Shown: one piece after another, positions 8,784-56,007 of the stretch
Layout of the letters: each line of letters opens with the position of its first letter
Position numbering within the stretch: position 1 is the stretch's first letter
Assembly: GCA_013697915.1 (NCBI GenBank)
Contig: JACCVY010000220.1
Span: 1-64,000, forward strand
DNA: 64,000 nucleotides
From: Blastocatellia bacterium
GTDB taxonomy: Bacteria; Acidobacteriota; Blastocatellia; Pyrinomonadales; Pyrinomonadaceae
Direction: 5' to 3'
The notes under the pieces: model-generated
Database searches by the model: none
Seen by the model: the letters and a program-made list of their open reading frames with translations, nothing else
What the model was told of the DNA's origin: nothing
Translations under genes and position numbers: made by a program

Positions 8784-8961
8784 GGCAAGCCTTTCACGTT
8801 GCTTGTGTGATAAGTCCACTTTGTTTCTTGACGAAGATTTTCCAGTGAACACTCCTGTCCGCTCAGAATGTTCTGGGTTAGCGTTAATCTCATTGGATCT
8901 AGTTGCCGGTTGCCAGCCGCGCTGTTGCGCCGTCGCTCCTTACAGTTGATTCATAATCAGA

Positions 8962-11352: not shown

Positions 11353-11377
11353 TGATAACCTTTCGCGCTAACGCTTG

Positions 11378-12706
11378 TCACTGCACCGTAGCTGTTGCTC
11401 CTCGCGCCCCGGCAAGGTACTTAAGCCACTCTTTCGCCATTAACCGATGATAGGGTTCTGTCATGTGAATGCCATCGAGGCACACGAAGCTGGCCCTGTC
11501 TGGCGCCGACGATAAAATGCTGCCGACCTCGATCACTTCTATGCCCGCATCTCCAGCCGCCTTGACTGCGCGTTCCACGGTTCCCGGCTTGCTATCAGCA
11601 GGGTCGTGAACCTCGTCAAACATGTAAGTCTCTATACCAGCGGCGCGAAATCCTTCGCCCATTTGTTTGAGTGCATCGTAGTCCTCATCCGTGCGCGTCA
11701 TAACGACGAGCATGACTTTGTCAGGCTTCCAATCGAGCACGTCCTGATAGAAGCGCTTCTGGGCGCGCGAGGCGGTCAAGCCACCGCCGGCAAACTGTTT
11801 GAATTCTACTTTTGGATTTTCGCGCCGGAAGACATCAATCACGATTGGCACAAAACTCGACGGCGAAGACCAATGCAGTCCCATCGTAAACGAGTGCCCG
11901 ATGACGGCAATCTTCTGAGCCGGCATTGCCCGCAGTTTCGGCACCAGCCGTTTCACGTCCGGCTCCCGCAGCAACTCCGCCGCAAGTACGCGCTCATCGC
12001 GAATGTGCAAATTTTTTTCTCCCCAGTTCCAGATCTTTCGCCCGGCTATCTGCCACTCAGCGGCGGTTGTCCCCACAGGCGACTCGCAAGCTTGCCCCTC
12101 GAGCTTCCGGCCGACGGCAAGCAGGTCGGCATCGCTGCCGGGCAAATTAAATTGCCCGACATACACGGGCAAGCCTAACCCGATGTAGAAAGCGTATTCC
12201 TCTTGCAGGCGATCGCCGTCGCGCTCAACCTCGAGCACAGTCTGATAGAGGCTTGCCACGGCGCGAATCTTCACTCCGCTGGCCTTCGTGTTTCGGCGCA
12301 AGTAGTCAGTGAAGATATTAACCGGCGCGTTGGACGGTACTGTGAGTCCGGAGGAAAGTATCGGCTCAAGATCCTGTGCCGGATCGAAGGCTGATTTCGC
12401 TCCATTTGCCCACGCCCTCACTGCGTTTAAATCGGACTTCAGCAGTTTGGCTTGATGTTCTGAAAGACTCTCGAGTTCTTTATCTGAAAGCTTCCCCTGC
12501 GAGTAGCACGCGGGATCGCCCTTCCTTGATGTTTTTGCAAGCAGCACTTGGTAAGCGTGCACGGCAATTACATTGGCCTCGACGAGTTGGGCCAACCGAC
12601 CAGCGCTTCCCTGCTCAGCCCGCGCTTTGCGTTGAGGAACGTTCTGGCCGAAAACCACAGCTGGGATAACCATGCCCATCAACAGCCGGATGATTCTTCT
12701 TTTCAT
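11378..12706 (-). CDS. Secreted SGNH/GDSL-type hydrolase-like protein
   Basis: A 442-residue exported protein (MKRRIIRLLMGMVIPAVVFG signal). The C-terminal half carries SGNH-type motifs: the nucleophile serine in AVIGHSFTMGL, a glycine-rich block FAGGGLTASR, and the DGIHMTEPYHRLM block with the Asp-x-x-His pair. The usual asparagine block is not clear, as the aligned strand reads LVVMTRTDED. The N-terminal 200 residues are helical and unassigned. SGNH enzymes remove acetyl or other ester groups from polysaccharides, which would help the neighbouring lyases. GAGG lies five bases before the ATG. Confidence 0.68.
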   Translation of the reverse strand: MKRRIIRLLMGMVIPAVVFGQNVPQRKARAEQGSAGRLAQLVEANVIAVHAYQVLLAKTSRKGDPACYSQGKLSDKELESLSEHQAKLLKSDLNAVRAWANGAKSAFDPAQDLEPILSSGLTVPSNAPVNIFTDYLRRNTKASGVKIRAVASLYQTVLEVERDGDRLQEEYAFYIGLGLPVYVGQFNLPGSDADLLAVGRKLEGQACESPVGTTAAEWQIAGRKIWNWGEKNLHIRDERVLAAELLREPDVKRLVPKLRAMPAQKIAVIGHSFTMGLHWSSPSSFVPIVIDVFRRENPKVEFKQFAGGGLTASRAQKRFYQDVLDWKPDKVMLVVMTRTDEDYDALKQMGEGFRAAGIETYMFDEVHDPADSKPGTVERAVKAAGDAGIEVIEVGSILSSAPDRASFVCLDGIHMTEPYHRLMAKEWLKYLAGARGATATVQ

Positions 12707-40596: not shown

Positions 40597-42204
40597 TCAT
40601 ACAACTCTGCCTTTCAACGCTCGCGCACCCCAGCCCGCATGTTGCATGAAATAGATCAGTTGGCTTGAGAATTGAAAGGCCCAGTTAAAGGCGCGAGCTG
40701 GGTGGTTAACGTCGAGTGCGACAGCCAACGGAAAGAACCGTTTGAAACGCGCTAGATAAATCTCGCTCCGCTTTCGATCCTCGCTAAAAAAGATGCCCAG
40801 GGCGAAGGTATAAGCCATCTCCGCATTATGCATTTCCATATCAGGGCCGAGCTCGCCGCGTGGTGCTTTCGGATCAAGAGGCGCGAAACAGTTGATCACA
40901 TAATAAGCCTTCGACCCATCTGGTACGATTCCCTGACGGTTCAGAAAGTCGCACCACTTGGCCACGATTTCCGGCACGCGCTTATCGCCGCTGAGTGTCC
41001 AATAGTGGAAGAGCGGATCCAGCAGCAACGCCATCATCCAGGCTGAAGTGGCGCCTTTGAAGGTCGCCTCATTAGGATCGTACAGCTCCCAATCCTGTCT
41101 TAAAGAACCATCAGGAGGGCGACCATCGGGCGGCTGCCGCTGGTGATTGTAATACGCCTCAACACATTCCCGCGCTTTTATCCAGTAGGCTCGATTGCCA
41201 GTCATTTCCCATCCATGCAGAATGCCAAGCAAACCGTAACCCTGGTGCCGCAGCGTCCAGAAGTTTCGACCCTGTTCGGGATCAACGCCGAGCGGTACGG
41301 GTTTGATCAGTTCGGGACGGTAAACGGGTTTTTGTTTCTTCATGCAATACTGGGCCATAAGTTTCCCGGTGACGAGCGCGCGTTCATCACCGGTCAACAA
41401 GTAATGAATGTGCATTGCTCGCGGATAAACATATTTGAGGTCGGGACCTTTCAATGTAAAGATGCCGGCATCGGGGCCCTCCGCTTTCGTATGTAGTCGC
41501 ACGAAGTGGGCAGCGTGATACGCAGCATCGAGGAATTTCCTCTCTCCCGTGCGCACGTACATCTTGTAATAGACTGTCGTCCGATCAAAAAGCCACTCGG
41601 AATACACTTTGCTATCCAGATATGCAAGCGACCCCGCAAAGTTTTTCTCGACAAACTGATCGTAAGGCGAATACGCGCCAGAGGAGATGGTCGACGTCTG
41701 CGGACCCACGATCCACGAATCGCACAGCCATTGGGCCGGCAATCGCGCGCTCACCCGCGGCCCCTTCAGACCCTCTTCATCAATTAGGGTATGCGATACG
41801 CGGACAATGTCATTCGCATTTTTTCTGCGCGCCTGGTGAAAGACGATCTTAACTTTCTGGGTCGGCTGGCGCGCAAAGTCTGACTTGAATTGAACAAGCA
41901 GTGAACGAATGGCTCCGTCCCTTCCGCCGATGCGCCAGGGTTCAAGCGATCGGATAGCTGCAGTTACTTCCTGTCCGTTTTCCGCAATAACCCTCACTTG
42001 TCGCGGGTCCGTTAGAAAGCCGGGCGGAAGCGGAAGACCAAAACTGACAAGCTCATTTCCCAGATCTGCCGCGCGCCCTTCCAGGATTACCTCAACTTCT
42101 GTCGCTCCCCGGAACATGGATGATCGACGCGCAAGCGGAACCGCCCCCAGGAAGAGTAGGCCATTCTTAAGAAACGACCTGCGTGAATCACTCGTTGCGC
42201 ACAT
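40597..42204 (-). CDS. Tat-exported RIFT-barrel/alpha-toroid protein (PcRGLX/YetA-like)
   Basis: The 535-residue protein begins with a twin-arginine-type motif (DSRRSFLKNGLLFLGAVP), so it is probably exported folded. The N-terminal part (LVSFGLPLPPGFLTDPRQVRVIAENGQEV) resembles the RIFT-barrel domain of PcRGLX/YetA-like polysaccharide lyases. The remainder is a helical toroid rich in aromatic and histidine residues (YPRAMHIHYLLTGDE, WTLRHQGYGLLGILHGWEMTGNRAYW). This suggests an exo-acting lyase or an unsaturated-uronyl hydrolase-like enzyme acting on acidic oligosaccharides. The assignment is by fold resemblance and remains tentative. Confidence 0.55.
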   Translation of the reverse strand: MCATSDSRRSFLKNGLLFLGAVPLARRSSMFRGATEVEVILEGRAADLGNELVSFGLPLPPGFLTDPRQVRVIAENGQEVTAAIRSLEPWRIGGRDGAIRSLLVQFKSDFARQPTQKVKIVFHQARRKNANDIVRVSHTLIDEEGLKGPRVSARLPAQWLCDSWIVGPQTSTISSGAYSPYDQFVEKNFAGSLAYLDSKVYSEWLFDRTTVYYKMYVRTGERKFLDAAYHAAHFVRLHTKAEGPDAGIFTLKGPDLKYVYPRAMHIHYLLTGDERALVTGKLMAQYCMKKQKPVYRPELIKPVPLGVDPEQGRNFWTLRHQGYGLLGILHGWEMTGNRAYWIKARECVEAYYNHQRQPPDGRPPDGSLRQDWELYDPNEATFKGATSAWMMALLLDPLFHYWTLSGDKRVPEIVAKWCDFLNRQGIVPDGSKAYYVINCFAPLDPKAPRGELGPDMEMHNAEMAYTFALGIFFSEDRKRSEIYLARFKRFFPLAVALDVNHPARAFNWAFQFSSQLIYFMQHAGWGARALKGRVV

Positions 42205-42276: not shown

Positions 42277-43500
42277 TTAAGTCTTCAGACCCAATAAACG
42301 TGCGGCGTTTTCATAGTAGACCTTACGCAGAATGTTTTCCGGAAGACCGATTCCGTAGATCTGCCAACGACCCTGCGGCGGTTTAGGCGCCGGCGCATAG
42401 TCGAAGTACTCGTCTTCAGTTTCGAGAAACCGATAATAGATTTCGTACAGTTCGTTGCCGAAGATTTGCTGTGGTGTTTCATCTCCATGCGGCGTCGCAT
42501 CTGTCGCAAAGACAATTCGATCCTGGTACTTGTCGAAAAACTTTCGCGCCATCCGCGGCTGTCGTCCCAGTTCTCCGATGCGGGCGGCAATATCAACAAA
42601 CATATTCGGATAGCGATCCAGACATTCTGAAACGTAGGGCAGGTTCTCGGAGTCTGAGACGTGAAGCGCCACGAACTTCGTGCGCGGGTGGCGCGCCATC
42701 ACTCGGTTCCGGGCTTCCTGTAATTCCGCATTGCTGGGGAAATCTTTTCCATGAAAGGACCAATCGGGATGGGCGCTTAGTTCCTCGTATCGCTCATTGA
42801 AGCGATCGATTGGCAGAAAGAACGCTTCGGGATCGGAGATATGAATCGCCACTGGCATGTCCAGAGCACCCGCTGCATCCCACATCTTATCGAAACGCCG
42901 GTCATCTATTTTGACCAATGGACCAGTCGTCACGTTTTCACGCAGGTAGAGACCCAACCTTTTCAGAACCTTCAATCCGCGGGCACCGATCTTCTTCGCG
43001 CTTTCAAGTTGATCCGCTTGAAACTGCGAATAATTGGGAATGATGATTTTTTCGTACCAGGGCTCAGTGAAAACAATGAACCGATCGGGATGGGGCGCTT
43101 GCCAGTAACGAATCGTTTCCTCGAGAAGAGGCCCATAGCCACCCGTTAGATTGATCATCATTCGCACGTTCTTGGCATCCATCACCTGAAGAATCTCTTC
43201 GGGCTTCGCGGCATGATGAACCACGTTCCTTTTTCCCTTGCGGTCAATCCAGGACAAGTGTGAGTGAAAATCTATATTTGGAAAGCGTGAGCGCGATACA
43301 TGTGTTTCGGGAACGTGCAGCATGCTTCGCGGTTGATAGTCCTTCAATTGCAGCGGCCTTCCATTGACCTGAGAGTTGGCTGCTGCTTCCGACCCCGGGT
43401 TGGCCTTAGCGCCACTGCGGTTAAGAAGTTCGCTGCCCACCACGCCCAATCCTGCGGTCGCAACTGTTCGTAACCACTGTCTTCTGCTGCTCGCCTTCAT
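42277..43500 (-). CDS. Tat-exported amidohydrolase_2-family metal hydrolase
   Basis: 407 residues from ATG 43500, which has GAGGAGG at ideal spacing. An N-terminal twin-arginine-like signal (SSRRQWLRTVATAGLGVVG) precedes an amidohydrolase_2 barrel: FPNIDFHSHLSWID (first metal His pair), MPVAIHISDPEAFF, KFVALHVSDSENLP and the late Asp in RIVFATDATPHGDE. This family includes decarboxylases and lactonases acting on carboxylated substrates, which suits a uronan locus. It is the first gene of the left arm at the divergent centre, so its strong ribosome binding site and position suggest high expression. The substrate is unknown. Confidence 0.82.
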   Translation of the reverse strand: MKASSRRQWLRTVATAGLGVVGSELLNRSGAKANPGSEAAANSQVNGRPLQLKDYQPRSMLHVPETHVSRSRFPNIDFHSHLSWIDRKGKRNVVHHAAKPEEILQVMDAKNVRMMINLTGGYGPLLEETIRYWQAPHPDRFIVFTEPWYEKIIIPNYSQFQADQLESAKKIGARGLKVLKRLGLYLRENVTTGPLVKIDDRRFDKMWDAAGALDMPVAIHISDPEAFFLPIDRFNERYEELSAHPDWSFHGKDFPSNAELQEARNRVMARHPRTKFVALHVSDSENLPYVSECLDRYPNMFVDIAARIGELGRQPRMARKFFDKYQDRIVFATDATPHGDETPQQIFGNELYEIYYRFLETEDEYFDYAPAPKPPQGRWQIYGIGLPENILRKVYYENAARLLGLKT

Positions 43501-43968
43501 GACTCCTCCTCTGTGCACGCCTGCAAGTGGACCAAAAGATGATTGCTAAGAAATAAGACCAGCCTCAATAGAACAAGTCGCATGTGCTATGCGACGGCCG
43601 GTTCAGAATTAGTTTGACAATCTTCCGGTCGTGTATTATTTGATAATCATCTTCGCTTTTACCGAAAAGAATTAGGTTAGGATTCGTTTTGGACACGATC
43701 GGCACTTGTTTGTAAGCAATCCCAACTAACCTTTCACACCTGATAAAGGCCCGATAAACATGACGGCGAAACCAGGCACGAAAAGCTTATCGATTTCTTC
43801 TCAGTCGCACTGCTCGTGTGTCAGTGCTTGAAGTGACGATTCCAAGCGGACTGGGCGCGTTATAGCATCAGAAACCAGCGGCCCGCAACGATTTTTACTC
43901 GCGAACATACCCAATATTAAGGAAGGCTCCTCCGGATTCTTGAGTCATCTTCTGAAAGAACATAACGA
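43501..43968. promoter_or_regulatory. 468-bp divergent centre of the locus
   Basis: This gap separates the leftward and rightward arms and must hold promoters for both. A perfect 7-bp inverted repeat, GTCGCAT-GTGCT-ATGCGAC, lies at 43577-43595. Just downstream, TTGACA at 43614-43619 followed after 17 bases by TATTTG (43637-43642) makes a candidate rightward promoter, leaving a leader of over 300 nt before the kinase-transferase start. The palindrome sits immediately upstream of the -35, a reasonable operator position. No ORF with support was seen. Confidence 0.4.
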
Positions 43969-46521
43969 ATGATTGTCTCGGAACTAAAACTTTCTTTGTC
44001 CGAAGCCCTTCTGGCCGCAGAGAAGGATTGGCAAAAAGTCCCGTTAAATGGCGGCGAGTATCGGCTTCTGGATTATCTCATTGAGTCGGGGGATTCTCCG
44101 CCGGAGCTAAATAAGCGGTCCCTTCTTTATCTCTTCAAACAGATATATGGCGATAAAGAAGAACTGCTCAGGGCCAAGCTGACCCGATTAAGCGATCTTT
44201 GTGATCTGTTTCTCAAACTCTACGGTGATGGCCCGGCTACCTTGCTGCGTGCTCCAGCTCGAATCAACGTTCTCGGTGAACACATCGATTACGTCTCCTA
44301 TATTCCGACCGCATCTCTTAGCTTCGGCAGTAGGGAACGCGACATGTTGATGTTGTACCGCGTCAGCGAGATGAGACGTGTGCGCGGCGCTTCCACTTCG
44401 CAAGCCCACCCACCCTTCGCCTTCACCCGGGATGAGGGACCCTTGCTTACGGCAGCCGGCAGCTCGGAAGACAACTGGTTATCCTACTTGTATGAGAACA
44501 CCGCCCCAGCGCCTCACTGGGACAATTACGTGAAAGGCGCCGTCTACTTTGCGCATATGAAGTTTGGCAAACAGACCCGGTTCGGGTTTGATTTCGCCGT
44601 TGATTCGAATATCCCACCCGGTGGTGGGGCGTCCTCTTCGTCAGCCCTGGTGGTGCTGGCAGGCGCGGCTTTACGCGAAGTCAATCATATTAAACACACG
44701 CCCGAAGAGTTGGCTCGCGACTCTGCCAAGGCCGAATGGTATGTCGGGACCAGAGGCGGCGCGATGGATCATATAACTATCTGTCTCGCACGCACCTCGC
44801 GGGCAGTGCGGATTAGTTACTGGAGGGACCAGACGCGACGCGTTTCCATGCCCGGCCAGTACTTCCAGTGGATAACCTTCTTCTCAAAGGCCGCCGACAA
44901 AGGGCGCGAAGTGATGATTGAGTATAACGAGCGCGCCGCTGTCTCACGCTTACTGATCCCCGCGGTGATCAATGGCTGGAAGACACAGCAGCCCGACCGC
45001 TATGGCGCCTGGTCTAAGGCCGTGGAGTCGTTTGCCGCGGGATCAGTGGCAGCACTGGAAGAAATAGAAGCTTTGATCATGGAACTGCCAGAAACCCTTG
45101 TCCTCAGTGCTATCGAACAGGACTATCCCAATACTTTTTCTGAATGTGAACGAGCTTTCCCGGCCCTGGTCAAGGAGCGGCGAGATTTGCCGCTGCAGGT
45201 GCGATCTCGGGCCCTCCATCATCTCGGAGAGGTACGTCGAGGTGTGTTCGCCACTAGTATTCTCGATTCGATCGAGCCTGGTTCAGACGCTCGCGAGCAC
45301 ATCTCCGCCATGCGCTTGCTCGGCGCAATTCTTAACGAATCACACCAAAGCCTGCGGGATCTCTATGACGTTAGTATTCCGGAAGTGGAGCGTTTAGTCG
45401 AAATCATTCGCTCAGATCCGAATGTTTACGGAGCGCACTTGATGGGCGGTGGCTTCGGTGGAAATGTGCTCGCGCTTACGAGTGAAGAACACGTGCCGGC
45501 GCTGACAGAACGAGTGCAAGCGGAATATTACGAACCGCATGGGCGGCATGGCATTCGAGAGGGATCGGTCATGATCTCAACTCCAGGTAACGGACTCGCA
45601 CCCCTCAGCTTGAATAGTGTATGGCGTGAAGCAATCGAACAATTCAACTCGATGGGTCGCGATGCGGCCTCTTACCGCACGAACATGGTTGCCATGCTCG
45701 ATACCTTACAACTCGACGCACCGCCGGCAGAGGTCTGGCCGATCATCGTGGCGGCAGGCAAAGGAACTCGCGCGAGGGCCACGGGACTGGAGGTGCCAAA
45801 GCCTCTGGCATTAGTAGCAGGCAAACCCGCCATCGTTCACGTACTAAACAATGTCCGCTCTGCATTAGGAAGAACGCGCCCACCCCTCGTCATCGTCTCA
45901 CCGGAAACGGAAGCAGCCGTCCGCGAGGCGCTCGCAGGCGAAGAAGTAACATTCGTTTTGCAGCCGGCGGCGTTGGGAACGGGAGACGCCGTCTTCAGTG
46001 CACATGAACAGATGCGTAACTTTCAGGGGCTGGCGTTTGTTGTTTGGAGCACTCAGCCGGCGATTCGTTCAATTACGATGCAACGCACAGTGAGGTTAGC
46101 GACGCTCTTTGATGATTACGAGATGGTGCTGCCCACTACGCTCAAGAATCTTCCCTACGCCCCGCTGCAGCGCGATGAGGATGGACGCGTCCGATCGGCA
46201 AGCGAGACGCACCTGGAGGCAGCCGAGATCCCGGTCTTCGGTGAAACTAACATGGGCCTGTTCGTGCTAAAGAGCCAGACGATGTTCGAAATCCTGCTCA
46301 ACCTGAGACTGCGCTACTGGAACGAGTCGCGCGAGCGTTACGAGTGTCCGGGTTATGAGTTGGGCTTCCCTAAGGAGCTAATCAATTCCCTGGGTCAACG
46401 AGAAACTGGCGTCTTTGCGTGTCCTATTGCGGACAGTCGTGAGGAACAAGGAATCAAGCAGCTTGAAGATGTCAGCCGTTGCGAGCAATTCATCTCCGAG
46501 TTGGAGCAGGAGCAATCCTAG
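43969..46521 (+). CDS. Fused GHMP (galactokinase-family) kinase and sugar nucleotidyltransferase
   Basis: The 850-residue cytosolic protein has a helical N-terminus (1-75), then a galactokinase-type GHMP kinase: the sugar-binding signature RAPARINVLGEHIDY (94-108), the ATP loop PPGGGASSSSALVV (about 215-229) and the third motif GAHLMGGGFGGN (about 488-499). From about residue 589 a GT-A nucleotidyltransferase follows (IIVAAGKGTRARATGLEVPKP). Its usual metal-binding GD strand reads VVWSTQPAI. Activity would be sugar to sugar-1-phosphate to nucleotide-sugar. Fkp has the same pair of activities in the opposite order. The substrate (galactose, GalNAc or a uronic acid) is not settled. Confidence 0.82.
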   Translation: MIVSELKLSLSEALLAAEKDWQKVPLNGGEYRLLDYLIESGDSPPELNKRSLLYLFKQIYGDKEELLRAKLTRLSDLCDLFLKLYGDGPATLLRAPARINVLGEHIDYVSYIPTASLSFGSRERDMLMLYRVSEMRRVRGASTSQAHPPFAFTRDEGPLLTAAGSSEDNWLSYLYENTAPAPHWDNYVKGAVYFAHMKFGKQTRFGFDFAVDSNIPPGGGASSSSALVVLAGAALREVNHIKHTPEELARDSAKAEWYVGTRGGAMDHITICLARTSRAVRISYWRDQTRRVSMPGQYFQWITFFSKAADKGREVMIEYNERAAVSRLLIPAVINGWKTQQPDRYGAWSKAVESFAAGSVAALEEIEALIMELPETLVLSAIEQDYPNTFSECERAFPALVKERRDLPLQVRSRALHHLGEVRRGVFATSILDSIEPGSDAREHISAMRLLGAILNESHQSLRDLYDVSIPEVERLVEIIRSDPNVYGAHLMGGGFGGNVLALTSEEHVPALTERVQAEYYEPHGRHGIREGSVMISTPGNGLAPLSLNSVWREAIEQFNSMGRDAASYRTNMVAMLDTLQLDAPPAEVWPIIVAAGKGTRARATGLEVPKPLALVAGKPAIVHVLNNVRSALGRTRPPLVIVSPETEAAVREALAGEEVTFVLQPAALGTGDAVFSAHEQMRNFQGLAFVVWSTQPAIRSITMQRTVRLATLFDDYEMVLPTTLKNLPYAPLQRDEDGRVRSASETHLEAAEIPVFGETNMGLFVLKSQTMFEILLNLRLRYWNESRERYECPGYELGFPKELINSLGQRETGVFACPIADSREEQGIKQLEDVSRCEQFISELEQEQS

Positions 46522-46562
46522 CAGTTCAAAAGCAGCAGGAATTCCTTCCTGACACTGAAAAT

Positions 46563-46626
46563 GTAACGCAAGCAGTTAGCTTGCGACGTTGCCTAACGAA
46601 GATCGCAAACTAACAGTTTGCGTTAC
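46563..46626. repeat. REP-like paired palindromes between two genes
   Basis: Two stem-loops lie side by side: CGCAAGC-AGTTA-GCTTGCG (46567-46585) and CGCAAACT-AAC-AGTTTGCG (46604-46622). The 24-base blocks 46563-46586 and 46603-46626 are also inverted copies of each other with three mismatches, so the element can fold either as two hairpins or as one long one. It lies between the kinase-transferase stop and the MFS start. The layout resembles REP/BIME elements mobilised by RAYT transposases. It could also end or stabilise the upstream transcript. Confidence 0.8.
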
Positions 46627-46664
46627 GAAACGGGAGCGAACAAGCGGCGCTGCGGAAGACAACT

Positions 46665-47975
46665 ATGGCAAAGATTAAAAAGATATCCGATGTCGAGCAC
46701 CGACCAATTTCAAACTTGCGCTGGTGGATCGGTGGACTACTCTTCGCCTCGACAGTTATCAACTACATCGATCGCCAGACGCTCTCCGTGCTGGGCCCCT
46801 ACCTAAAGATTGACTATCACTGGAACAACGAACAGTTCGCATTGATTGTTATTGCGTTTCGCGTGACATATTCCGTGGGACAAACGGTTTCTGGTCGTCT
46901 CATTGATCGCATCGGAACGCGCAAAGGTTTGACCATCACCGTCATCTGGTACTCATTGGCGGCGATGTTAACGTCGCTGGCCGTTGGAATACGCAGCTTC
47001 GCCTTTTTCCGTTTTTTGCTGGGCGCGGGCGAATCTGCCAACTGGCCGGCGGCGACGAAGGCCGTCTCTGAATGGTTTCCAAAACGCGAACGCGGTTGGG
47101 CCGTGGCTCTCTTTGACAGTGGCTCCTCTGTAGGCGGTGCGATAGCGCCACTACTCGTCATCGGGTTGTATAAATACTTTGGCAGTTGGCGTCCGGCCTT
47201 CGTCCTCACAGGCACGCTTGGGTTCTTGTGGCTAGGCGCCTGGCGACTGCTCTACCATCCGCCCGAAACCCATCCGCGCATCAGCGAGAGCGAGCGCGAG
47301 ATGATCATGGCTGATCGCCTCGATCAGGAAACTACCGAGGCGCGCACGGGTCCGCGCCTCGCCTGGAAAGATTTGATTAAGCTGCCGCAGACGTGGGGAG
47401 TAATCGCCGCTCGCACGATGACTGACCCGATCTGGTTTTTCATCACCGACTGGTTCGCGATTTACCTTGTGACCAAAGGAATTAATCCCGAACAGGCACT
47501 GCTGGCCTTTTGGATTCCTTTCGTTGCTGCTGACCTTGGTAACTTTTTTGGCGGCGGCATCTCTAGCTGGCTGATCAAACGCGGTTGGCCGGTTTTGCGT
47601 GCGCGCAAGGCGGTGGTGGTGTTTGGCGGACTGGGTATGACGCTTCTTATTCCGACTGTTTTCACTTCAAACCTATTCGCGCTCGCCGGTCTGTTTGCTG
47701 TTTCGACTTTCGCCTACGCTTCCTTCTCAACAATGGCGCTCGTGCTGCCATCGGATCTATACAGGAGCGAGTCAGTGGCCACAGTGAGCGGAATGAGCGG
47801 CACGGGAGCAGGGGTAGGCACGATCATCTCGACCTATCTGATTGGCTACGTTTCGGACCACTACTCATTCGAGCCGATTTTGATCACGGCAAGCCTAATC
47901 CCCCTTGTGGGCATGGTCCTGGTTCTGTTTCTCGTCCGCGAAAAGCAGCCCTTGAAGGTTCAAAATACGACCTAG
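46665..47975 (+). CDS. MFS transporter, ExuT/anion:cation symporter-like
   Basis: The 436-residue, 12-helix major facilitator begins its first helix with [18 protein letters not shown], the hallmark of the anion:cation symporter group that includes the hexuronate carrier ExuT. It also has the MFS loop [14 protein letters not shown] and [25 protein letters not shown] between helices 4 and 5. The group imports acidic sugars (galacturonate, glucuronate, glucarate) with protons. This supports uronic acids as products of the locus. GGAAG lies six bases before the ATG. Confidence 0.9.
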
Positions 47976-48059: not shown

Positions 48060-49406
48060 ATGAAGCCACTAAAGATCGGAATCACGGGCGTGCGCGGCAT
48101 CGTCGGCCAAGCTTTTACGCCGGAGTTGGCCTGCGAGTTCGCGCAGGCGTTTGGCACGTATCTGGACGGTGGACGCATCCTTGTTTGCCGCGACACACGC
48201 CCGTCAGGGCCAATGGTTCACGCCGCCGTGTGCGCCGGTCTACTGGCGGCGGGCTGCGAGGTCATTGATCTGGACATATGCCCGACGCCAAGCATGCAAC
48301 TAGCGCTGAAATGGCTCGGCGGTGACGGCGGCATTGCGATCACCGCAGGCCACAACCCCGCGCAGTGGAACGCGCTCAAGTTTGTCCGCGCCGATGGTCT
48401 TTATCTGAACTCGACGCAAGCCGAGGAGTTGCTCGACATCTATCATCAGGGTGAGTTCCTGAAAACTACCTGGGATAAGATCAAGACGGGGATCGAGCGT
48501 GAAAATGTAATTGAACACCACATTGAAATCCTCCGAGCCGCATTCGACATTGAGGCAATCCGATCGAAGCGAATGACGGTCGCTGTTGACTGTTGTAATG
48601 GAGGGTGCGCGCTCCTGATACCGCGTTGGCTCGAAGAACTAGGTTGCGAGGTGCTGGCACTTAATGATGATCCCTCCGCGCCTTTCCCTCATTCACCTGA
48701 ACCGAAGCCGGAAACAATGGCTCAACTCCGCGCGGTGGTTAAAGCAGGACGCGCCGACATCGGCTTCGCCCACGACGCAGATGGCGAGCGCCTCGGTATC
48801 GTTACTGAACTTGGCGAACCGCTATCGGAAGAGTTGTCACTTCCCATCGCTGCGGAGATTCGCTGGCAGCAGCGGAGCGGACCCATTGTGACGAACGTTT
48901 CGACGGGAAGCACTATCGATCAACTTGCAGCGCGCTACGGCGCAACCGTCGTGCGCACTCCTGTCGGACAGCCCTATATCTCCGAAGCTATTATCGAGCA
49001 CGAAGCCATTCTCGGCGGCGAAGGTAGCGGCGGCATCGCCGTTCCGGAAGTCCACCCAACTCACGACAGCGCTGCGGCTATTGGGCTCATCCTCGAGCGG
49101 TTGGCAGGTAGCGACCTCAAGATTTCTGACCTGGCAACACAACTGCCCCAGGTGACGATGGTCAAGTACAACATTGAGGTAGAACCCAATCGTCTCTACT
49201 CTCTATTGCAGAGTTTTCGCTTGCTGGTCGAGCGCGAAAAACTAGACCATGACCTGACCGATGGCGTTAAAGTGTCGCTGCCTGATGGCTGGGTACACGC
49301 GCGCGCCTCGAATACTGAGTCAATGATCCGATTGATAGTCGAAGCGAAGGATCCGAAGCGCGCCCAGGATCTGCTCGACTGGGCACGTGACCGGATAAGG
49401 AAGTAA
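48060..49406 (+). CDS. Phosphohexomutase paralogue lacking the catalytic serine
   Basis: A 448-residue member of the alpha-D-phosphohexomutase superfamily with all four domains. The active-site loop reads TAGHNP, with glycine 97 (codon GGC at 48348-48350) where the phosphorylated serine of TASHNP should be. The metal loop is D239-A-D241-G-E243-R rather than DxDxDR, and the phosphate loop is ASNTESMIRL, missing the usual proline. The fold is intact (GGEGSGG sugar loop kept), so this is probably a pseudoenzyme or an enzyme of changed chemistry, not a decaying gene. It sits two bases upstream of an intact paralogue, and the two may form a complex. Confidence 0.85.
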   Translation: MKPLKIGITGVRGIVGQAFTPELACEFAQAFGTYLDGGRILVCRDTRPSGPMVHAAVCAGLLAAGCEVIDLDICPTPSMQLALKWLGGDGGIAITAGHNPAQWNALKFVRADGLYLNSTQAEELLDIYHQGEFLKTTWDKIKTGIERENVIEHHIEILRAAFDIEAIRSKRMTVAVDCCNGGCALLIPRWLEELGCEVLALNDDPSAPFPHSPEPKPETMAQLRAVVKAGRADIGFAHDADGERLGIVTELGEPLSEELSLPIAAEIRWQQRSGPIVTNVSTGSTIDQLAARYGATVVRTPVGQPYISEAIIEHEAILGGEGSGGIAVPEVHPTHDSAAAIGLILERLAGSDLKISDLATQLPQVTMVKYNIEVEPNRLYSLLQSFRLLVEREKLDHDLTDGVKVSLPDGWVHARASNTESMIRLIVEAKDPKRAQDLLDWARDRIRK

Positions 49407-49408
49407 AT

Positions 49409-50773
49409 ATGCGAGCCATACCCACTCTTAAGATCAGTATTTCCGGCGTGCGAGGCGTGATTGGCGACTCGTTGTCACCGACGTTGCTCACTCGATTCGC
49501 TCAAGCCTTCGGCACATATGTCGGCTCAGGCACAATTGTCATAGGCCGCGACCCGCGAACTTCTGGCGAGATGGTCAAGCAAGCGGTCGTCGCCGGACTC
49601 TTATCGAGTGGCTGCCGCGTTCTCGACGTGGGCATGTGCCCGGTTCCAACCGTGCAGCTAATGGTGGCCCAACAAGGGGCACACGGAGGACTTGCTATCA
49701 CAGCCAGTCACAATCCCCCGGAGTGGAACGCACTGAAATTCATTGGCCCCGACGGATTATTCCTGGGGCCGGGACTCGCTCGCGAGATGCTCGATATCTA
49801 CCATCAAGGCGAATATGTGAAGGTGGCGGGAGCGGAAATGCGCGGTGTCGAGACGCTATTTGGAGCGACTGATCGCCATATCAAAGCCATTCTCGACTCG
49901 CTTGGGCCACTACCCGAAAAAGGGCGGCGACTGCGTGTCGTGCTTGACGCCTGCAACGGCGCCGGCTCAATCGTTGGTCCAAAGCTACTCGAAGCGCTCG
50001 GCGCGGAAACTATCTCGATTAACAATCAACCCAACGGACAATTTCCTCGGCCCGCTGAGCCTATTCCGGAGAACCTGGGCGACCTGTGTGCGGCGGTCAA
50101 GGAACATCGCGCCGACATCGGTTTCGCACAGGACATGGATGCGGATCGCCTCGCCATTGTCTCGGAGTTGGGAGAACCCATTGGTGAAGACTACACGCTG
50201 GTCCTGGCCATGTTGTACGTGCTCGGCCGAGAGCGCGGCCCGGTCGTCGCCAACCTCTCAACAACTCACGTACTGGATTTCGTGGCGAAGCTCTTTGACT
50301 GTCCTCTTTATCGCACCCGGATCGGCGAAGCCAATGTTACCGAAGTCATGCAGCGTGAAGGCGCAGTGATCGGAGGCGAGGGCAATGGCGGTGTGATCTA
50401 TCCGCGCGTCAACTTCGCTCGCGACAGCCTTGTCGGGATGGCGCTCGTTCTCCACTTGCTTGCCGATCGGGGACGCTCGGTTTCTGAAATTCTCCGGGAG
50501 CTGCCACGCCTTTACATGATCAAGGAGAAGCTGCCCTGCCCTTCCCACAAAATAGGCGAGGTCCTGAAGATGGTCCGTCAAGTCTATGCAGACTCTCCGG
50601 TGGATTTGACCGACGGAGTGAAAGTTATTCTCCCGCACGGATGGTTACACGTCCGCGGCTCGAACACGGAACCAATCATCCGCCTCTCGGCTGAAGCCGA
50701 CACACCAGAACAGGTCCGGTTGATAAGCGACTCGGTATTCGGATTGACACGACAGCTAATCAACCAAAAATGA
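49409..50773 (+). CDS. Phosphoglucomutase/phosphomannomutase/GlmM-type phosphohexomutase
   Basis: A 454-residue phosphohexomutase with every key site: the phosphoserine S100 in ITASHNPPEW, the metal loop DMDADR, the sugar loop GGEGNGG and the phosphate loop RGSNTEPIIRL. It would move phosphate between C1 and C6 of a hexose or hexosamine phosphate, linking the kinase-transferase product (sugar-1-phosphate) with the sugar-6-phosphate used by AgaS. AGGAAG precedes the ATG, which starts two bases after the stop of the serine-less paralogue. Substrate could be glucose, glucosamine, mannose or galactosamine phosphate. Confidence 0.92.
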   Translation: MRAIPTLKISISGVRGVIGDSLSPTLLTRFAQAFGTYVGSGTIVIGRDPRTSGEMVKQAVVAGLLSSGCRVLDVGMCPVPTVQLMVAQQGAHGGLAITASHNPPEWNALKFIGPDGLFLGPGLAREMLDIYHQGEYVKVAGAEMRGVETLFGATDRHIKAILDSLGPLPEKGRRLRVVLDACNGAGSIVGPKLLEALGAETISINNQPNGQFPRPAEPIPENLGDLCAAVKEHRADIGFAQDMDADRLAIVSELGEPIGEDYTLVLAMLYVLGRERGPVVANLSTTHVLDFVAKLFDCPLYRTRIGEANVTEVMQREGAVIGGEGNGGVIYPRVNFARDSLVGMALVLHLLADRGRSVSEILRELPRLYMIKEKLPCPSHKIGEVLKMVRQVYADSPVDLTDGVKVILPHGWLHVRGSNTEPIIRLSAEADTPEQVRLISDSVFGLTRQLINQK

Positions 50774-50890: not shown

Positions 50891-51796
50891 ATGAGCTATG
50901 CAATCGGTGTGGATCTCGGGGGAACGAACATTAAGATCGCAGTCGTCTCTCACGATGGCGAAGTGTTGGAGTATTCAACCTGCGAAACTGCGGACGACGC
51001 AACGGGCTCCTGGGCTGAAATGATTAAACAAAAGATCGGTGGGGTTCAGAATCAACGCGGTGAACCAGCGAGTCATATAGGTCTTGCCGCTCCCGGCCTG
51101 GCTGCGCGAGACGGCCTTTCAATAGCCAACATGCAGGGCCGACTCCAGGGACTTGAAGGACTCGTCTGGACAGATTTTTTGCGCACGCCACGCGCTGTGC
51201 TTGTGCTCAACGACGCTCATGCGGCGCTCCTCGGTGAAGTCTGGAAAGGTGCAGCGGCCGGGTTTAGTAATGTGGTGCTGCTGACGCTCGGCACGGGCGT
51301 CGGCGGCGCGATCCTCGCTGACGGTCGTCTAGTCAAAGGCCATATTGGAAGAGCAGGACATCTCGGGCATATTTGCCTGAACCCAGATGGCCCGCCGGAT
51401 ATTGTTGGTACCCCCGGCAGTCTTGAGGAGATGATCGGCAACTGCACGTTGATAGCTCGTTCGGGAGGGCGATTCACCTCTACGCGCCAACTGGTCGAGG
51501 CACATCTTGCCGGTGATTCACAGGCTACAGATATCTGGTTACGGTCTGTCTACCATCTGGCGGTCGGCATCACTTCCATCATTAATGCGTTTGATCCGGA
51601 AGTGATCATTCTTGGCGGAGGAATCGCTCGCGCCGGTTCAGCACTCTTCGGACAACTTTCGCGTTTTATGGAACAAGTAGAATGGCGACCATTGGGACAC
51701 CGAGTGCCCATCATCCCGGCGGCCTTAAGCGATCAGGCTGGAGCTCTCGGCGCGGTATATCATGCGTTTCGCGGGAACGAGGAGACCTTCCTCTGA
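50891..51796 (+). CDS. ROK-family sugar kinase (GalNAc/GlcNAc/glucokinase-like)
   Basis: A 301-residue kinase with the ATP loop IGVDLGGTNIKIAVV, the catalytic-Asp segment LVLNDAHAALLGE, LTLGTGVGGAI and the ROK histidine in GRAGHLGHICL. The four-residue zinc site (CxCGxxGCxE) of most ROK kinases is absent: the segment reads CLNPDGPPDIVGTPGSLEE. It would phosphorylate C6 of a hexose or N-acetylhexosamine. Beside AgaS and the AgaR-type regulator, GalNAc or galactosamine is the best guess. A 117-bp gap separates it from the phosphohexomutase gene. Confidence 0.88.
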   Translation: MSYAIGVDLGGTNIKIAVVSHDGEVLEYSTCETADDATGSWAEMIKQKIGGVQNQRGEPASHIGLAAPGLAARDGLSIANMQGRLQGLEGLVWTDFLRTPRAVLVLNDAHAALLGEVWKGAAAGFSNVVLLTLGTGVGGAILADGRLVKGHIGRAGHLGHICLNPDGPPDIVGTPGSLEEMIGNCTLIARSGGRFTSTRQLVEAHLAGDSQATDIWLRSVYHLAVGITSIINAFDPEVIILGGGIARAGSALFGQLSRFMEQVEWRPLGHRVPIIPAALSDQAGALGAVYHAFRGNEETFL

Positions 51797-51833: not shown

Positions 51834-51991
51834 GTTTCTCCTTCGCTTCAATCTTGACAACAGGCAGACCTCGCCCGAATAATGCGGCCGGACGGGATCC
51901 GGAGTGGCTGGCATTTGTGTATGGTCGCAACTCCATCCTTGCTCAAGCTTCCTGATAGAGAGCGGTGCCCCGCTGGCAAAGTGACGACCCT

Positions 51992-52753
51992 ATGTTGAAC
52001 CTGGAACGCCGAACAAAAATCCTGGAACTTCTCGAGAGACACGGGCAAGTTGCAGTTATGGATCTGAGTCGACGCTTCAAGACTTCCGAAGTCACTATTC
52101 GCAACGACCTGAAGGATCTACACCAGCATGGATTGGTACGGAGGGCCCACGGAGGGGCGGTCAAGGTCGCGACAGTCAGCATTGACCCGTCACTAAAAAT
52201 CAAGGCTGAGCTGCACGCCGATGAGAAGAGGCGGATCGGCGCCGCTGCCGCCGCTCTCATCAACGACGGAGAATCGATCATCCTTGACTCGGGGACAACA
52301 ACGCAGCAAATCGCGCGTCAAATAAAACACAAAAAAGATTTGAAGGTCATCACCAATGGACTGAATATCGCAATGGAGTTATTTGGCGTTAAAGACATTC
52401 AACTGATACTGCTGGGGGGTGTGGTACGCCAAAACTCTTTATCCGCCGTCGGTCACTTCGCTGAAGACATGCTCGGACAACTTTCCGCCGACAAACTTTT
52501 TCTTGCGGTTGACGCTTGTGATGTTGAGTTCGGCTTAAGCACACCAAACGTCGAGGAGTCGCAAGTCAATCAGGCGATGGCACGGATTGCGAGCGAGAAA
52601 ATTCTCGTGGCTGACTCGAGCAAGTTTGGGAAGCGCAGTTTATCGCGCATCGTGCCCCTCACGGAGATTGACACGATTATTACTGATCGCGCGCTGCCCT
52701 TGGAAACCCAAACGGAACTGCGCTCACGCGACGTCGAACTCATCCTCGTCTAG
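51992..52753 (+). CDS. DeoR-family transcriptional regulator, AgaR-like
   Basis: 253 residues from ATG 51992 (a GTG nine codons earlier is possible). The N-terminal DeoR winged helix-turn-helix reads LERRTKILELLERHG then VTIRNDLKDLHQHGLVRRAHGGAV. The C-terminal sugar-phosphate-sensing DeoRC domain contains DSGTTTQQIARQI, VITNGLNIAMEL and the LLGGVVRQNSL loop. Such regulators respond to phosphorylated sugars, often tagatose-6-phosphate or galactosamine-6-phosphate for AgaR. It lies next to AgaS, and two sets of phased TTTYG repeats nearby (51810, 54101) are candidate operators. Confidence 0.9.
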   Translation: MLNLERRTKILELLERHGQVAVMDLSRRFKTSEVTIRNDLKDLHQHGLVRRAHGGAVKVATVSIDPSLKIKAELHADEKRRIGAAAAALINDGESIILDSGTTTQQIARQIKHKKDLKVITNGLNIAMELFGVKDIQLILLGGVVRQNSLSAVGHFAEDMLGQLSADKLFLAVDACDVEFGLSTPNVEESQVNQAMARIASEKILVADSSKFGKRSLSRIVPLTEIDTIITDRALPLETQTELRSRDVELILV

Positions 52754-52798: not shown

Positions 52799-53995
52799 TT
52801 AATGAATGGTCACGTGCGAGACCACCCGGTTAATGACACCTTGCGGGCTGGGAGCATCGGGTTTCAATCCTTCTCGCAAAGAAGCAAAAAGACCGAGCAG
52901 TTGCCCGACCAGGACGTCCACCGGTGGGCGATAGAGATCCGCAATTGGATGTTGGAATCCCAGAACAATAGTATCTCCTTCTAATCCAAACACGGCGCTG
53001 TCGCGCATCCTGGTGGGCAATACCGCCACGCGTTTTGCGGTAAGTCGTTTGTCAAAAATCTCTTTCACCAGGTCCAGTTCATAAGCTCTTCGCCTTTCGT
53101 CCCCCGAGAGAAAACTGACGACGAGTGTATCGCGATCAATCGCTGAAAGTGGGCCGTGCCTGAGCCCAAGAAATGATTCGGAGAAGCTCATTACCCGTCC
53201 GTCCGTTAGTTCCAGCACCTTCAAAGCCGACTCGGTGGCTGCTCCCTTGAGCGGCCCAGTGCCTAAAAAACAGACCTTGGAGAATCCTTCATGCACGAGG
53301 CGTTCGCACACGTCCGCCGCCGCAAGAAGAACCTGCGATGCAGTACTAGCCAAATCGTCAAGTAACGTTCCATATGTTTCCAGATCTCGCAGGTGTGCCA
53401 GCGCCTGGCCAACGATAACCATGTTGGAAAACGAACTGGTCATTGCCAGGCCGCGATCATTCACCTCATCATCAAGCACAATGCTGAAAACGTTTCGCCG
53501 GTCGTTAAATGAGCACGCCATTTTTCCATGATCATTACATGTGACTATAAGATGACGGACCTCCGGGTAGCGTTCCAGAGCGGCTTTCAGCACCGCCACG
53601 CCTTCAGCGCTATCCCCGGATCGGGAGAACGATATCCAAAGGTAAGATCGTTCCGGAAGGACATGCTCTTCAATGTTGGTCAGCAGATCCGTACTGGGAA
53701 CAGCCTGCACTTCGCAACGCCACTGCTTTTGTAACAGCGCGCATAGAGACTTTCCGATGTAGTCCGAAGTTCCGGCCCCAACCAGAAGGACAGTCAGCTG
53801 CGGCGATGTCTGGGCACTACCATTCAAACCGGCTTGGATAAGAAACTCCTTAATGGAAGGAGCAAGTTGCAAAAACTTTTGGTAGGTCCGTCGCCAGGTT
53901 GCCGATTGCTGTAAGATTTCGCGCGGTGTATGGACCAAGCCTCGCATCTCTTTTTCAGCCGCCGATAGGGCCAACAGCCTGGCCAACGCATCCAT
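52799..53995 (-). CDS. agaS: SIS-domain galactosamine-6-phosphate deaminase/isomerase (AgaS-like)
   Basis: A 398-residue tandem-SIS protein of the AgaS/GlmS-isomerase type. First SIS: VLLVGAGTSDYIGKSL and the phosphate-binding WISFSRSGDSAE. Second SIS: VCFLGTGPLKGAATESALKVLELTDGRVMSFSESFLGLRHGP. AgaS converts galactosamine-6-phosphate to tagatose-6-phosphate plus ammonia. It is divergent from the PfkB-aldolase operon, and phased TTTYG repeats sit in the shared 171-bp spacer. This is the best direct marker of galactosamine use in the window. Confidence 0.88.
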   Translation of the reverse strand: MDALARLLALSAAEKEMRGLVHTPREILQQSATWRRTYQKFLQLAPSIKEFLIQAGLNGSAQTSPQLTVLLVGAGTSDYIGKSLCALLQKQWRCEVQAVPSTDLLTNIEEHVLPERSYLWISFSRSGDSAEGVAVLKAALERYPEVRHLIVTCNDHGKMACSFNDRRNVFSIVLDDEVNDRGLAMTSSFSNMVIVGQALAHLRDLETYGTLLDDLASTASQVLLAAADVCERLVHEGFSKVCFLGTGPLKGAATESALKVLELTDGRVMSFSESFLGLRHGPLSAIDRDTLVVSFLSGDERRRAYELDLVKEIFDKRLTAKRVAVLPTRMRDSAVFGLEGDTIVLGFQHPIADLYRPPVDVLVGQLLGLFASLREGLKPDAPSPQGVINRVVSHVTIH

Positions 53996-54166: not shown

Positions 54167-55108
54167 ATGAGTAGTTTAGCGATGCGCCGCGTGGCGGTAA
54201 TTGGCGAGCTAAACGTCGACATGTTAGCGAGCGGACTAACAGGGTTGCCTCAAATGGGGAGTGAAATTCTTGCCCGGGACTTCGAGATGACTCTCGGCAG
54301 CGCTTCCGCGATTTTCGCGACAGGCATGGCGAAACTCGGCCACCCCGTAACTTTTATTAGCCAAGTGGGTAAAGACAATTTTGGCGATTTTTGCCTTGCG
54401 GCGCTCAAAGCGGCAGGCGTACCAACCAAACACGTCTCGCGCAACCGGAACGTCAGGACCGGGGTAACGATCGCACTGAGTTCGGTCCGTGATCGCGCCC
54501 TCGTTACCTATCAGGGGGCGATTGCCTCTTTAACATACGCGCAGTTGGAGTTGTCGCCGCTCAAAGGACACCGCCATCTACACATGACTTCTTACTTCCT
54601 GCAGACGGGGCTACGTCCAGCGTTCCCCCGGATTTTCCGGGAGGCTCGAAGGATGGGACTTACCACTTCATTCGATCCTAACTCTGATCTCACAGGCGCC
54701 TGGAGCGTAAAGATCCGCGAAGTCCTGGCCCATACTGATGTGCTCTTCGTGAACGAAACTGAAGCCCTGCAGCTGTCGCGTGCTCAAGGCGTCCGCAGTG
54801 CGCTGAGAACTCTGGGACGGTTCGTTCCCTGCGTTGTCATCAAGCAAGGCCCGCGAGGCTCTATGGCCGTCAAAGATGGTGAGATAACTTCGGCGCCCGG
54901 CTTCAAGGTCAAAGTGCTGGATACGACCGGCGCCGGTGATTCTTTCGCTGCTGGTTTCGTTTCGGCTTATCTACATGGTTCGTCTGTGGCCGAATGCTTG
55001 CGCGCCGGCAACGCCTGCGGTGCCTTATCTGCAGTCAAGCCTGGCGGAACGGCCGGACAACCCGACGAAAAACACTTAAGAAAGTTTCTGCGTGCAGAAA
55101 GCAGGTAG
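54167..55108 (+). CDS. PfkB-family carbohydrate kinase (ribokinase-like)
   Basis: A 313-residue kinase. The N-terminal PfkB pattern is IGELNVDMLASGLTGLPQMGSE, the sugar-binding and lid region ATGMAKLGHPVTFISQVGKDNFGD, and the catalytic GAGD is in LDTTGAGDSFAAGFVSAY. It phosphorylates a sugar or sugar acid hydroxyl. It is in the AgaS-regulated operon and ends 23 bases before the aldolase, but a separate LacC-type kinase further on is the better tagatose-6-phosphate kinase. This one may act on a 2-keto-3-deoxy acid, ketose or amino sugar. An ATG at codon 6 is an alternative start. Confidence 0.88.
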   Translation: MSSLAMRRVAVIGELNVDMLASGLTGLPQMGSEILARDFEMTLGSASAIFATGMAKLGHPVTFISQVGKDNFGDFCLAALKAAGVPTKHVSRNRNVRTGVTIALSSVRDRALVTYQGAIASLTYAQLELSPLKGHRHLHMTSYFLQTGLRPAFPRIFREARRMGLTTSFDPNSDLTGAWSVKIREVLAHTDVLFVNETEALQLSRAQGVRSALRTLGRFVPCVVIKQGPRGSMAVKDGEITSAPGFKVKVLDTTGAGDSFAAGFVSAYLHGSSVAECLRAGNACGALSAVKPGGTAGQPDEKHLRKFLRAESR

Positions 55109-55131
55109 GGCCACTCGTAAAGAGGGCAAAG

Positions 55132-56007
55132 ATGGGAACTGAGGCATTATCCGTGCGCATGCCGAAACTGTCGTCCAGTCGTCCGTTACTTGAAACCGCC
55201 CGGCGCTCTGGACTGGCTGTAGCAGCGCTCAATTTCTATAACGCGGAGACCTTGATTGCGCATGTAAGAGCGGCGCGGGCGCTTAACGCCTCGATCATTT
55301 TACAGACCACTGAATCGACCATTAATTACCTGGGACTGCCAATGATTGTTGGAATGGCCAACGCTGCAGCGGAAGAGATCGAGCAGGCAGTCTCGCTACA
55401 CCTGGATCACGGAGGAAGTTACGAGTTGGCGGCGCGTTGCATCGACCGCGGTTACACCTCGGTAATGATCGATGGTTCGAAATTATCATTTTCGGAGAAC
55501 TGTGCGTTGACGCGTCGTGTTAGTGAACTCGCGCACGCGCATGGTGTTTCTGTCGAGGGCGAGTTGGGACACGTTACGCATAACGACGAATCCGTAGGGG
55601 ACGACATTGCACGCTTCTACACGCGTCCCGAGGACGCCGCGCAGTTTGTCGCCGAAACCGACGTAGACGCCCTGGCAGTGGCTATCGGAACTGCGCACGG
55701 TTTCTATAAAGGTGAAGTGCGGTTGGACTTTGATCGGCTAAAGCAGATCAGAACATCGGTCGGCGAAACGGCGCTTGTGCTTCACGGCGGTTCGGGCGTC
55801 CCCGAACACCTGCTGCGGCGCGCCATCCAGTGCGGCATTTCGAAGATCAACTTCGGCACTGAGTTGAAAGATGCTTTCACTCGCGCAGTGAAGACATCGT
55901 TTTCGACAAGCGACGATATTGATTTGCGACGAACCTTCGCTCCGGCCATTGCCGCCGTGCAGGAGATCTCGCAGGCGAAGATTCGAATCTGTTCGGAACG
56001 GCAGTAG
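55132..56007 (+). CDS. Class II tagatose/fructose-bisphosphate aldolase (KbaY/GatY-like)
   Basis: 291 residues from ATG 55132, which follows GAGGG; the frame extending back to 54994 overlaps the kinase and is spurious. Zinc and catalytic motifs are VSLHLDHGGSYE (Asp base, His ligand), VEGELGHV, AIGTAHGFYKG (His ligand) and LHGGSGVP (phosphate loop and His). The product would split tagatose- or fructose-1,6-bisphosphate into dihydroxyacetone phosphate and glyceraldehyde-3-phosphate. Length and the SELAHAHGVSVEGELG block resemble KbaY/GatY. With AgaS and the LacC-type kinase it completes galactosamine-phosphate breakdown. Confidence 0.9.
   Translation: MGTEALSVRMPKLSSSRPLLETARRSGLAVAALNFYNAETLIAHVRAARALNASIILQTTESTINYLGLPMIVGMANAAAEEIEQAVSLHLDHGGSYELAARCIDRGYTSVMIDGSKLSFSENCALTRRVSELAHAHGVSVEGELGHVTHNDESVGDDIARFYTRPEDAAQFVAETDVDALAVAIGTAHGFYKGEVRLDFDRLKQIRTSVGETALVLHGGSGVPEHLLRRAIQCGISKINFGTELKDAFTRAVKTSFSTSDDIDLRRTFAPAIAAVQEISQAKIRICSERQ

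Follow-up and report, generated by a model that had tools for sequence, protein, structure and literature searches.

In Bacteroides fragilis, the L-fucokinase/GDP-fucose pyrophosphorylase Fkp has its pyrophosphorylase at the N terminus and its kinase at the C terminus, contains a beta-helix part, and has been proposed to work by a two-Mg mechanism in which Asp136 binds metal (PMC11982464). The zebrafish glucuronokinase/putative UDP-GlcA pyrophosphorylase DrGKUP also starts with the transferase, here joined to a kinase of the glucuronokinase branch (PMC3938481). No characterized fusion with the kinase first was found in the literature searched, a search that was not exhaustive. Among pyrophosphorylases, Aspergillus UAP1 has a lysine at the second-metal position of GlmU, and this lysine is needed for activity: the K437M mutant is inactive, and the K437R mutant is active at a 2.9-fold lower level (PMC8386105). 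LmUGP has been described likewise, with a lysine taking the place of a metal, and LmUSP is assumed to be similar (PMC12584669).

The window (the whole stretch of 64,000 nucleotides that was analysed) contains an open reading frame of 850 codons at positions 43969 to 46521 of the plus strand, encoding a kinase-transferase fusion of 850 amino acids. Its start codon is supported by the beginning M-x-x-S-[ED]-L, which is common to most complete relatives. The protein consists of an N-terminal extension that is helical in the AlphaFold model (residues 1 to 77, positions 43969 to 44199), a galactokinase-type GHMP sugar kinase domain (residues 78 to 545, 44200 to 45603), a weakly conserved linker with two predicted helices (residues 546 to 586, 45604 to 45726) and a GlmU-like nucleotidyltransferase domain (residues 587 to 850, 45727 to 46518). 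These boundaries were drawn from Pfam, AlphaFold and Foldseek, together with a GALK2 profile match for the kinase and sequence comparison for the linker; the extension and linker are far less conserved than the two domains. In the domain search that the preliminary description had suggested, GalKase_gal_bdg (residues 80 to 109), GHMP_kinases_N (186 to 272) and GHMP_kinases_C (448 to 521) were matched in the kinase half (PF10509, PF00288 and PF08544), and NTP_transferase/NTP_transf_3 (591/592 to 712) in the transferase half, all above the curated cut-offs. The Pfam order agrees with the kinase-first, GT-A-transferase-last arrangement read from the sequence in that description, which had also called it the reverse of Fkp; it is indeed opposite to the Fkp/FKGP-type order (PMC11982464) and to that of the zebrafish enzyme (PMC3938481). 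The Pfam scan found no hexapeptide (acetyltransferase) domain in the fusion. The AlphaFold model had a pLDDT of 86 and a pTM of 0.82 for the full chain, and 90 and 0.90 for the isolated transferase.

An assembly or frame artefact was rejected, as the identical architecture was found in several genomes, and the fusion is a real, conserved and unusual variant of the kinase-pyrophosphorylase fusions. It is a soil-bacterial protein of patchy and rare distribution: it was detected in 9 of the 119 genomes of the window's family (one copy being divided between two contigs and some truncated at contig ends), and the fusion or the kinase alone was detected in 18 of the 162 sampled genomes of the class. 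The GTDB scan used two kinase peptide patterns, which divergent members such as G402 would escape, and in the contig scan relatives were recovered with an alignment query, a single-protein query having given none. The fusion-bearing genomes named are Acidobacteriota MAGs labelled Pyrinomonadaceae, Chloracidobacterium and Blastocatellia. The fusion was also present in another Acidobacteriota class (G402, L140:4825-7653) and in one Planctomycetota MAG (L046), the single locus for that phylum. A 3.7-kb contig (L044) of a MAG labelled 'Acidimicrobiia' (Actinomycetota) carries a fusion and GlmM1 at 50 to 70% identity; it is possibly mis-binned Acidobacteriota DNA.

The kinase half has the galactose-binding signature, the GHMP N and C domains, the catalytic residues and the phosphate loop of the galactokinase subfamily, with R98, GEHID (residues 103 to 107), GGGASSSS (218 to 225), GGAMD (263 to 267) and GGGFGG (493 to 498) as its motifs. 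It matched the GALK2 profile with an E value of 1.2e-46, and the top Foldseek match of the whole chain was human GALK2 (2a2c, E 1.3e-23). Although the kinase half is only about 26% identical to GALK2, GALK2 ranked above all galactokinase structures in each of the three comparisons of sequence and fold. Against the canonical galactokinase model TIGR00131 (NCBIfam) the score was 153 bits, below the cut-off of 226.65. A role as a Leloir galactokinase was rejected because no match to GalT was found in the organism's genome, which is 97% complete. The two other GHMP kinases in the genome are both short, at about 335 amino acids. A literature search on AbGHMP (PDB 9ulx) returned nothing.

Downstream of the fusion, all but one of the genes discussed here lie on the plus strand. 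An MFS transporter of the anion:cation symporter type (46665 to 47975), which resembles D-galactonate transporters but scores below the cut-off of that model, is followed by GlmM1 (48060 to 49406) and GlmM2 (49409 to 50773), two phosphoglucosamine-mutase family paralogues that exceed the TIGR03990 cut-off and are about 45% identical to each other. Next come a ROK sugar kinase (50891 to 51796), a DeoR-family repressor above the NCBIfam AgaR cut-off (51965 to 52753), an AgaS-family SIS-domain sugar isomerase below the cut-off of that model (52799 to 53995, minus strand), and the overlapping reading frames of a PfkB kinase (54167 to 55108) and a class II aldolase (54994 to 56007). The kinase, MFS, GlmM1 and GlmM2 genes adjoin in six genomes (G000, G006, G008, G013, G048 and G083), making the transporter and the mutase pair conserved neighbours, and in G042 and L044 a GlmM gene follows the fusion immediately. 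In G001 and G500 the order is instead kinase-MFS-ROK-AgaR-AgaS, to which G500 adds PfkB and aldolase; the ROK gene is also near the fusion in G048. The window carries both the mutase set and the ROK-AgaR-AgaS-PfkB-aldolase set, and the earlier proposal that the fusion sits in a sugar-catabolic setting is supported. Between the fusion and the transporter (46522 to 46664), several short terminator-like hairpins were seen on the minus strand (46536 to 46622), the region overall being slightly above its shuffles. Upstream and divergent from the fusion lies a PF04909 amidohydrolase gene with a twin-arginine-like start (42277 to 43518, minus strand); the gene is found in this position in G000, G006, G042 and G048, with equivalents in L024, L027 and L028, and a two-domain PF04909 protein is encoded near the Planctomycetota fusion. 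A 535-amino-acid protein with no Pfam match at 0.01 (40597 to 42204, minus strand) is encoded beside the amidohydrolase, as in G006 and G048.

Of the two routes considered in the preliminary description, UDP-GalNAc and UDP-uronate, the first is reasonable: GALK2 is the nearest solved kinase, and AgaR, AgaS, PfkB and class II aldolase genes are nearby here and in G500. The uronate route is unsupported, because the genes conserved with the fusion include two phosphohexomutases of the GlmM type, enzymes that are unable to work on a uronate, whose C6 is a carboxyl. Given mutases that act on the kinase product, a uronate substrate is unlikely, and this route was set aside. GalNAc is a plausible candidate substrate. 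The kinase half would phosphorylate a sugar of galactose configuration at C1, the most plausible one being GalNAc imported through the adjacent MFS transporter, and one fate of the sugar-1-phosphate would be a shift of the phosphate to C6 by the GlmM-type mutases and catabolism via AgaS, PfkB and aldolase. From the gene names we infer a route from GalNAc through GalNAc-1-P, GalNAc-6-P, deacetylation and AgaS to tagatose-6-P and the aldolase. No deacetylase for this route was identified, and a literature search for GalNAc use in Acidobacteria through AgaS and GlmM gave no result. The GalNAc reading is based on a distant match and on neighbours, AgaR and AgaS were near the fusion in G000, G001 and G500 and were not seen at the other loci examined (several of them short contigs), and the transporter is closest to galactonate transporters. 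The kinase might then act on galactose or another hexosamine, with the fusion feeding glycan synthesis and not GalNAc use. This is improbable, however, in view of the missing GalT, the two hexosamine-mutase paralogues that adjoin the fusion and the lead of GALK2 over all galactokinase structures.

The transferase half has the GT-A fold, UTP loop, PKP, GTG and sugar-site E/N of GlmU-type uridyltransferases, and its top Foldseek match was Streptococcus pneumoniae GlmU with UDP-GlcNAc and Mg2+ (1g97, E 1.2e-21, TMq 0.82). Against the bifunctional GlmU model TIGR01173 (NCBIfam), the fusion scored 62 bits, with a cut-off of 366.85. In GlmU, Asp105 and Asn227 hold the catalytic metal. WSTQPAI (residues 693 to 699, 46045 to 46065) had been proposed to occupy the strand that normally carries GD, and this holds family-wide: in an HMM alignment referenced, like the residue table, to the canonical GlmU-type proteins of the phylum, Thr695 takes the place of the metal-binding Asp, and hhalign against the organism's own GlmU gave the same pairing, with SGDVP over WSTQP. 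The Asp site is T in all 10 core fusions, S in the Planctomycetota fusion and V in G402. At the second ligand, the Asn of GIN is replaced by Lys830 (QGIKQL, 46456 to 46458), a pairing on which hhalign independently agrees, and the change to K (GIK) is shared by 11 of the 12 fusions, the remaining one (L046) having R. In 12/12 fusions, therefore, the residue at the Asp site is non-acidic and the one at the Asn site basic. Lys611 (PKP, 45799 to 45801) is retained in 11 of the 12 fusions; we take the E. coli GlmU equivalents of R601 and K611 to be Arg18 and Lys25. Two further differences from GlmU are a Trp as the aromatic residue that precedes the metal strand and an Ala (YAP) in place of the YGR glycine (MtGlmU Gly151). 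By alignment R601, K611, Q665, T671, E746 and N761, the six contact positions checked, pair with the UTP/sugar contacts Arg19, Lys26, Gln83, Thr89, Glu166 and Asn181 of MtGlmU, where Arg19 and Lys26 form a salt-bridging pair (PMC8386105). All six are unchanged in 10/10 core fusions.

Loss of two metal ligands together with gain of a cation at that spot is the expected look of a lysine-for-metal conversion, and this reading was adopted because eukaryotic UAP1 and UGPases use a lysine instead of the second catalytic metal. In the alignment, the K or R found in every fusion lies at the GlmU metal-ligand position. The protein would then be a sugar-1-kinase and pyrophosphorylase in one polypeptide, to which we give a probability of about 0.5. 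As a second fate of the sugar-1-phosphate, the GlmU-like domain would join it to a nucleotide, most likely UTP, yielding an NDP-sugar. The domain would use a single Mg2+, which the nucleotide brings along, and Lys830 would occupy the position of the protein-bound metal of GlmU, so that the Asp and Asn ligands would no longer be needed. IspD was dropped as a precedent: the IspD of this organism has NIK and keeps its Asp, but hhalign puts that Lys two columns off.

Kinase-only relatives were found in about eight genomes of another family (f6) of the class (L031-L038 and L048-L054), with kinases 46 to 52% identical to that of the window. They have no transferase, and 11 to 17 residues precede the kinase in place of the roughly 75 residues in complete fusions, which suggests that extension and transferase were lost together. 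In L031 and L037 the kinase runs directly into MFS or GlmM1, with no space for a transferase remnant. In the kinase tree, with galactokinases as outgroup, these relatives grouped as a single clade (100/96) next to the fusions of family f1; the L044, L046 and G402 fusions branched earlier, that of G402 on a long branch. One gain and one loss of the transferase fit this tree best, with moderate support for the nesting (90/81). The transferase is dispensable for the core pathway, because the sister clade keeps kinase-MFS-GlmM-GlmM in several loci.

The same clade, several members of which retain MFS and/or GlmM1-GlmM2 beside the kinase where the flanks are readable, might indicate that the transferase has no function and has been in decay since the fusion, leaving a plain kinase for a catabolic route through sugar-1-phosphate and mutase. 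By the Nei-Gojobori method, however, dN of transferase and kinase was 0.23 and 0.32 (dS 0.76 and 0.92) between G048 and G500, one of the two least saturated pairs (the other being G001/G006), and 0.22 and 0.28 between the window and G001. In most pairs the transferase dN was equal to or lower than the kinase dN, and it was well below dS; many pairs are close to saturation at synonymous sites, which makes the ratios approximate. Many motifs are invariant among eight transferase domains that are 58 to 67% identical to that of the window, and the isolated transferase was folded with confidence. On these comparisons, the transferase domain is as well conserved as the kinase; pseudogene decay is weakened as an explanation and seems very unlikely.

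A functional domain could still be non-catalytic. The transferase may bind the nucleotide sugar of the pathway (or a nucleotide) and adjust the fused kinase, with the extension as part of the coupling, in the manner in which GMPPA, a non-catalytic homologue that binds GDP-mannose and feedback-inhibits, acts on GMPPB (PMC11228364). Both metal ligands are lost family-wide, and loss of the metal Asp is equally expected of a dead domain; the joint absence of extension and transferase from the clade of eight is as expected if the two cooperate. In L046 the UTP-loop Arg and Lys that contact phosphate (the Arg18 and Lys25 equivalents) are lost as well, and a separate gene (7921 to 8898) with a DD motif and a weak NTP_transf_3 match below the Pfam cut-off ends 3 bp before the fusion (8902 to 11547). 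In that lineage the fused domain seems either to have lost its activity, with a different protein taking its place, or to have been a sensor all along. The G402 fusion, with V at the Asp site (695), E at both 665 (Q665) and 693 (W693), and GGH for GEH in the kinase, may be altered in both halves and likewise counts against catalysis. In the core clade, by contrast, the pyrophosphate-contacting Arg and Lys are invariant, which would be superfluous for a pure product sensor, and the replacement of Asn by a basic residue in every member is not predicted by a simple loss of catalysis. A sensing role, favoured by the L046 locus, is the main rival to the catalytic reading but a somewhat less probable one.

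The lysine-for-metal reading in its fullest form is a tentative one: a GlmU-family pyrophosphorylase that underwent an independent metal-to-lysine swap behind a GALK2-type kinase, giving a one-chain, reverse-order salvage enzyme that would stand at the head of a catabolic operon and probably make UDP-GalNAc. An active transferase would show that as little as a pair of substitutions can turn the two-metal site of GlmU into one with a lysine and a single metal; differences of this kind have otherwise been described across remote families. The fusion would then also be a compact biocatalyst from free sugar to nucleotide sugars. With an inactive transferase, the protein would be a sugar kinase that carries its own pseudo-pyrophosphorylase, the fused equivalent of sensing as in GMPPA. 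A natural comparison is offered by close kinase relatives that either have or lack the transferase in similar operon surroundings.

Human GALK2 shares the GTxGGxMD motif and the galactokinase signature with the kinase half but is a stand-alone kinase, whereas here the kinase is fused and its substrate is predicted. The uridyltransferase domain of GlmU shares the fold and the six checked UTP/sugar-contact residues with the transferase half, which differs in the Thr and Lys at the metal positions and in having no acetyltransferase beta-helix domain. The proposed lysine instead of a second metal is common to eukaryotic UAP1 and Leishmania UGP, but these are distant GT-A branches without a fused kinase, so that the parallel is one of role and not of descent or residue superposition. 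GMPPA offers a pyrophosphorylase homologue with a sensing role, although it regulates another pyrophosphorylase in trans and the partner here would be the fused kinase. DrGKUP likewise combines a salvage-type GHMP kinase with a bacterial-type nucleotidyltransferase, but only there is the transferase N-terminal and the kinase of the glucuronokinase branch. Fkp, like the fusion, joins a GHMP sugar-1-kinase and a GT-A-type pyrophosphorylase in one chain; the fusion differs from it in the reversed order and the replaced metal ligands, and the search of its sequence gave no beta-helix domain.
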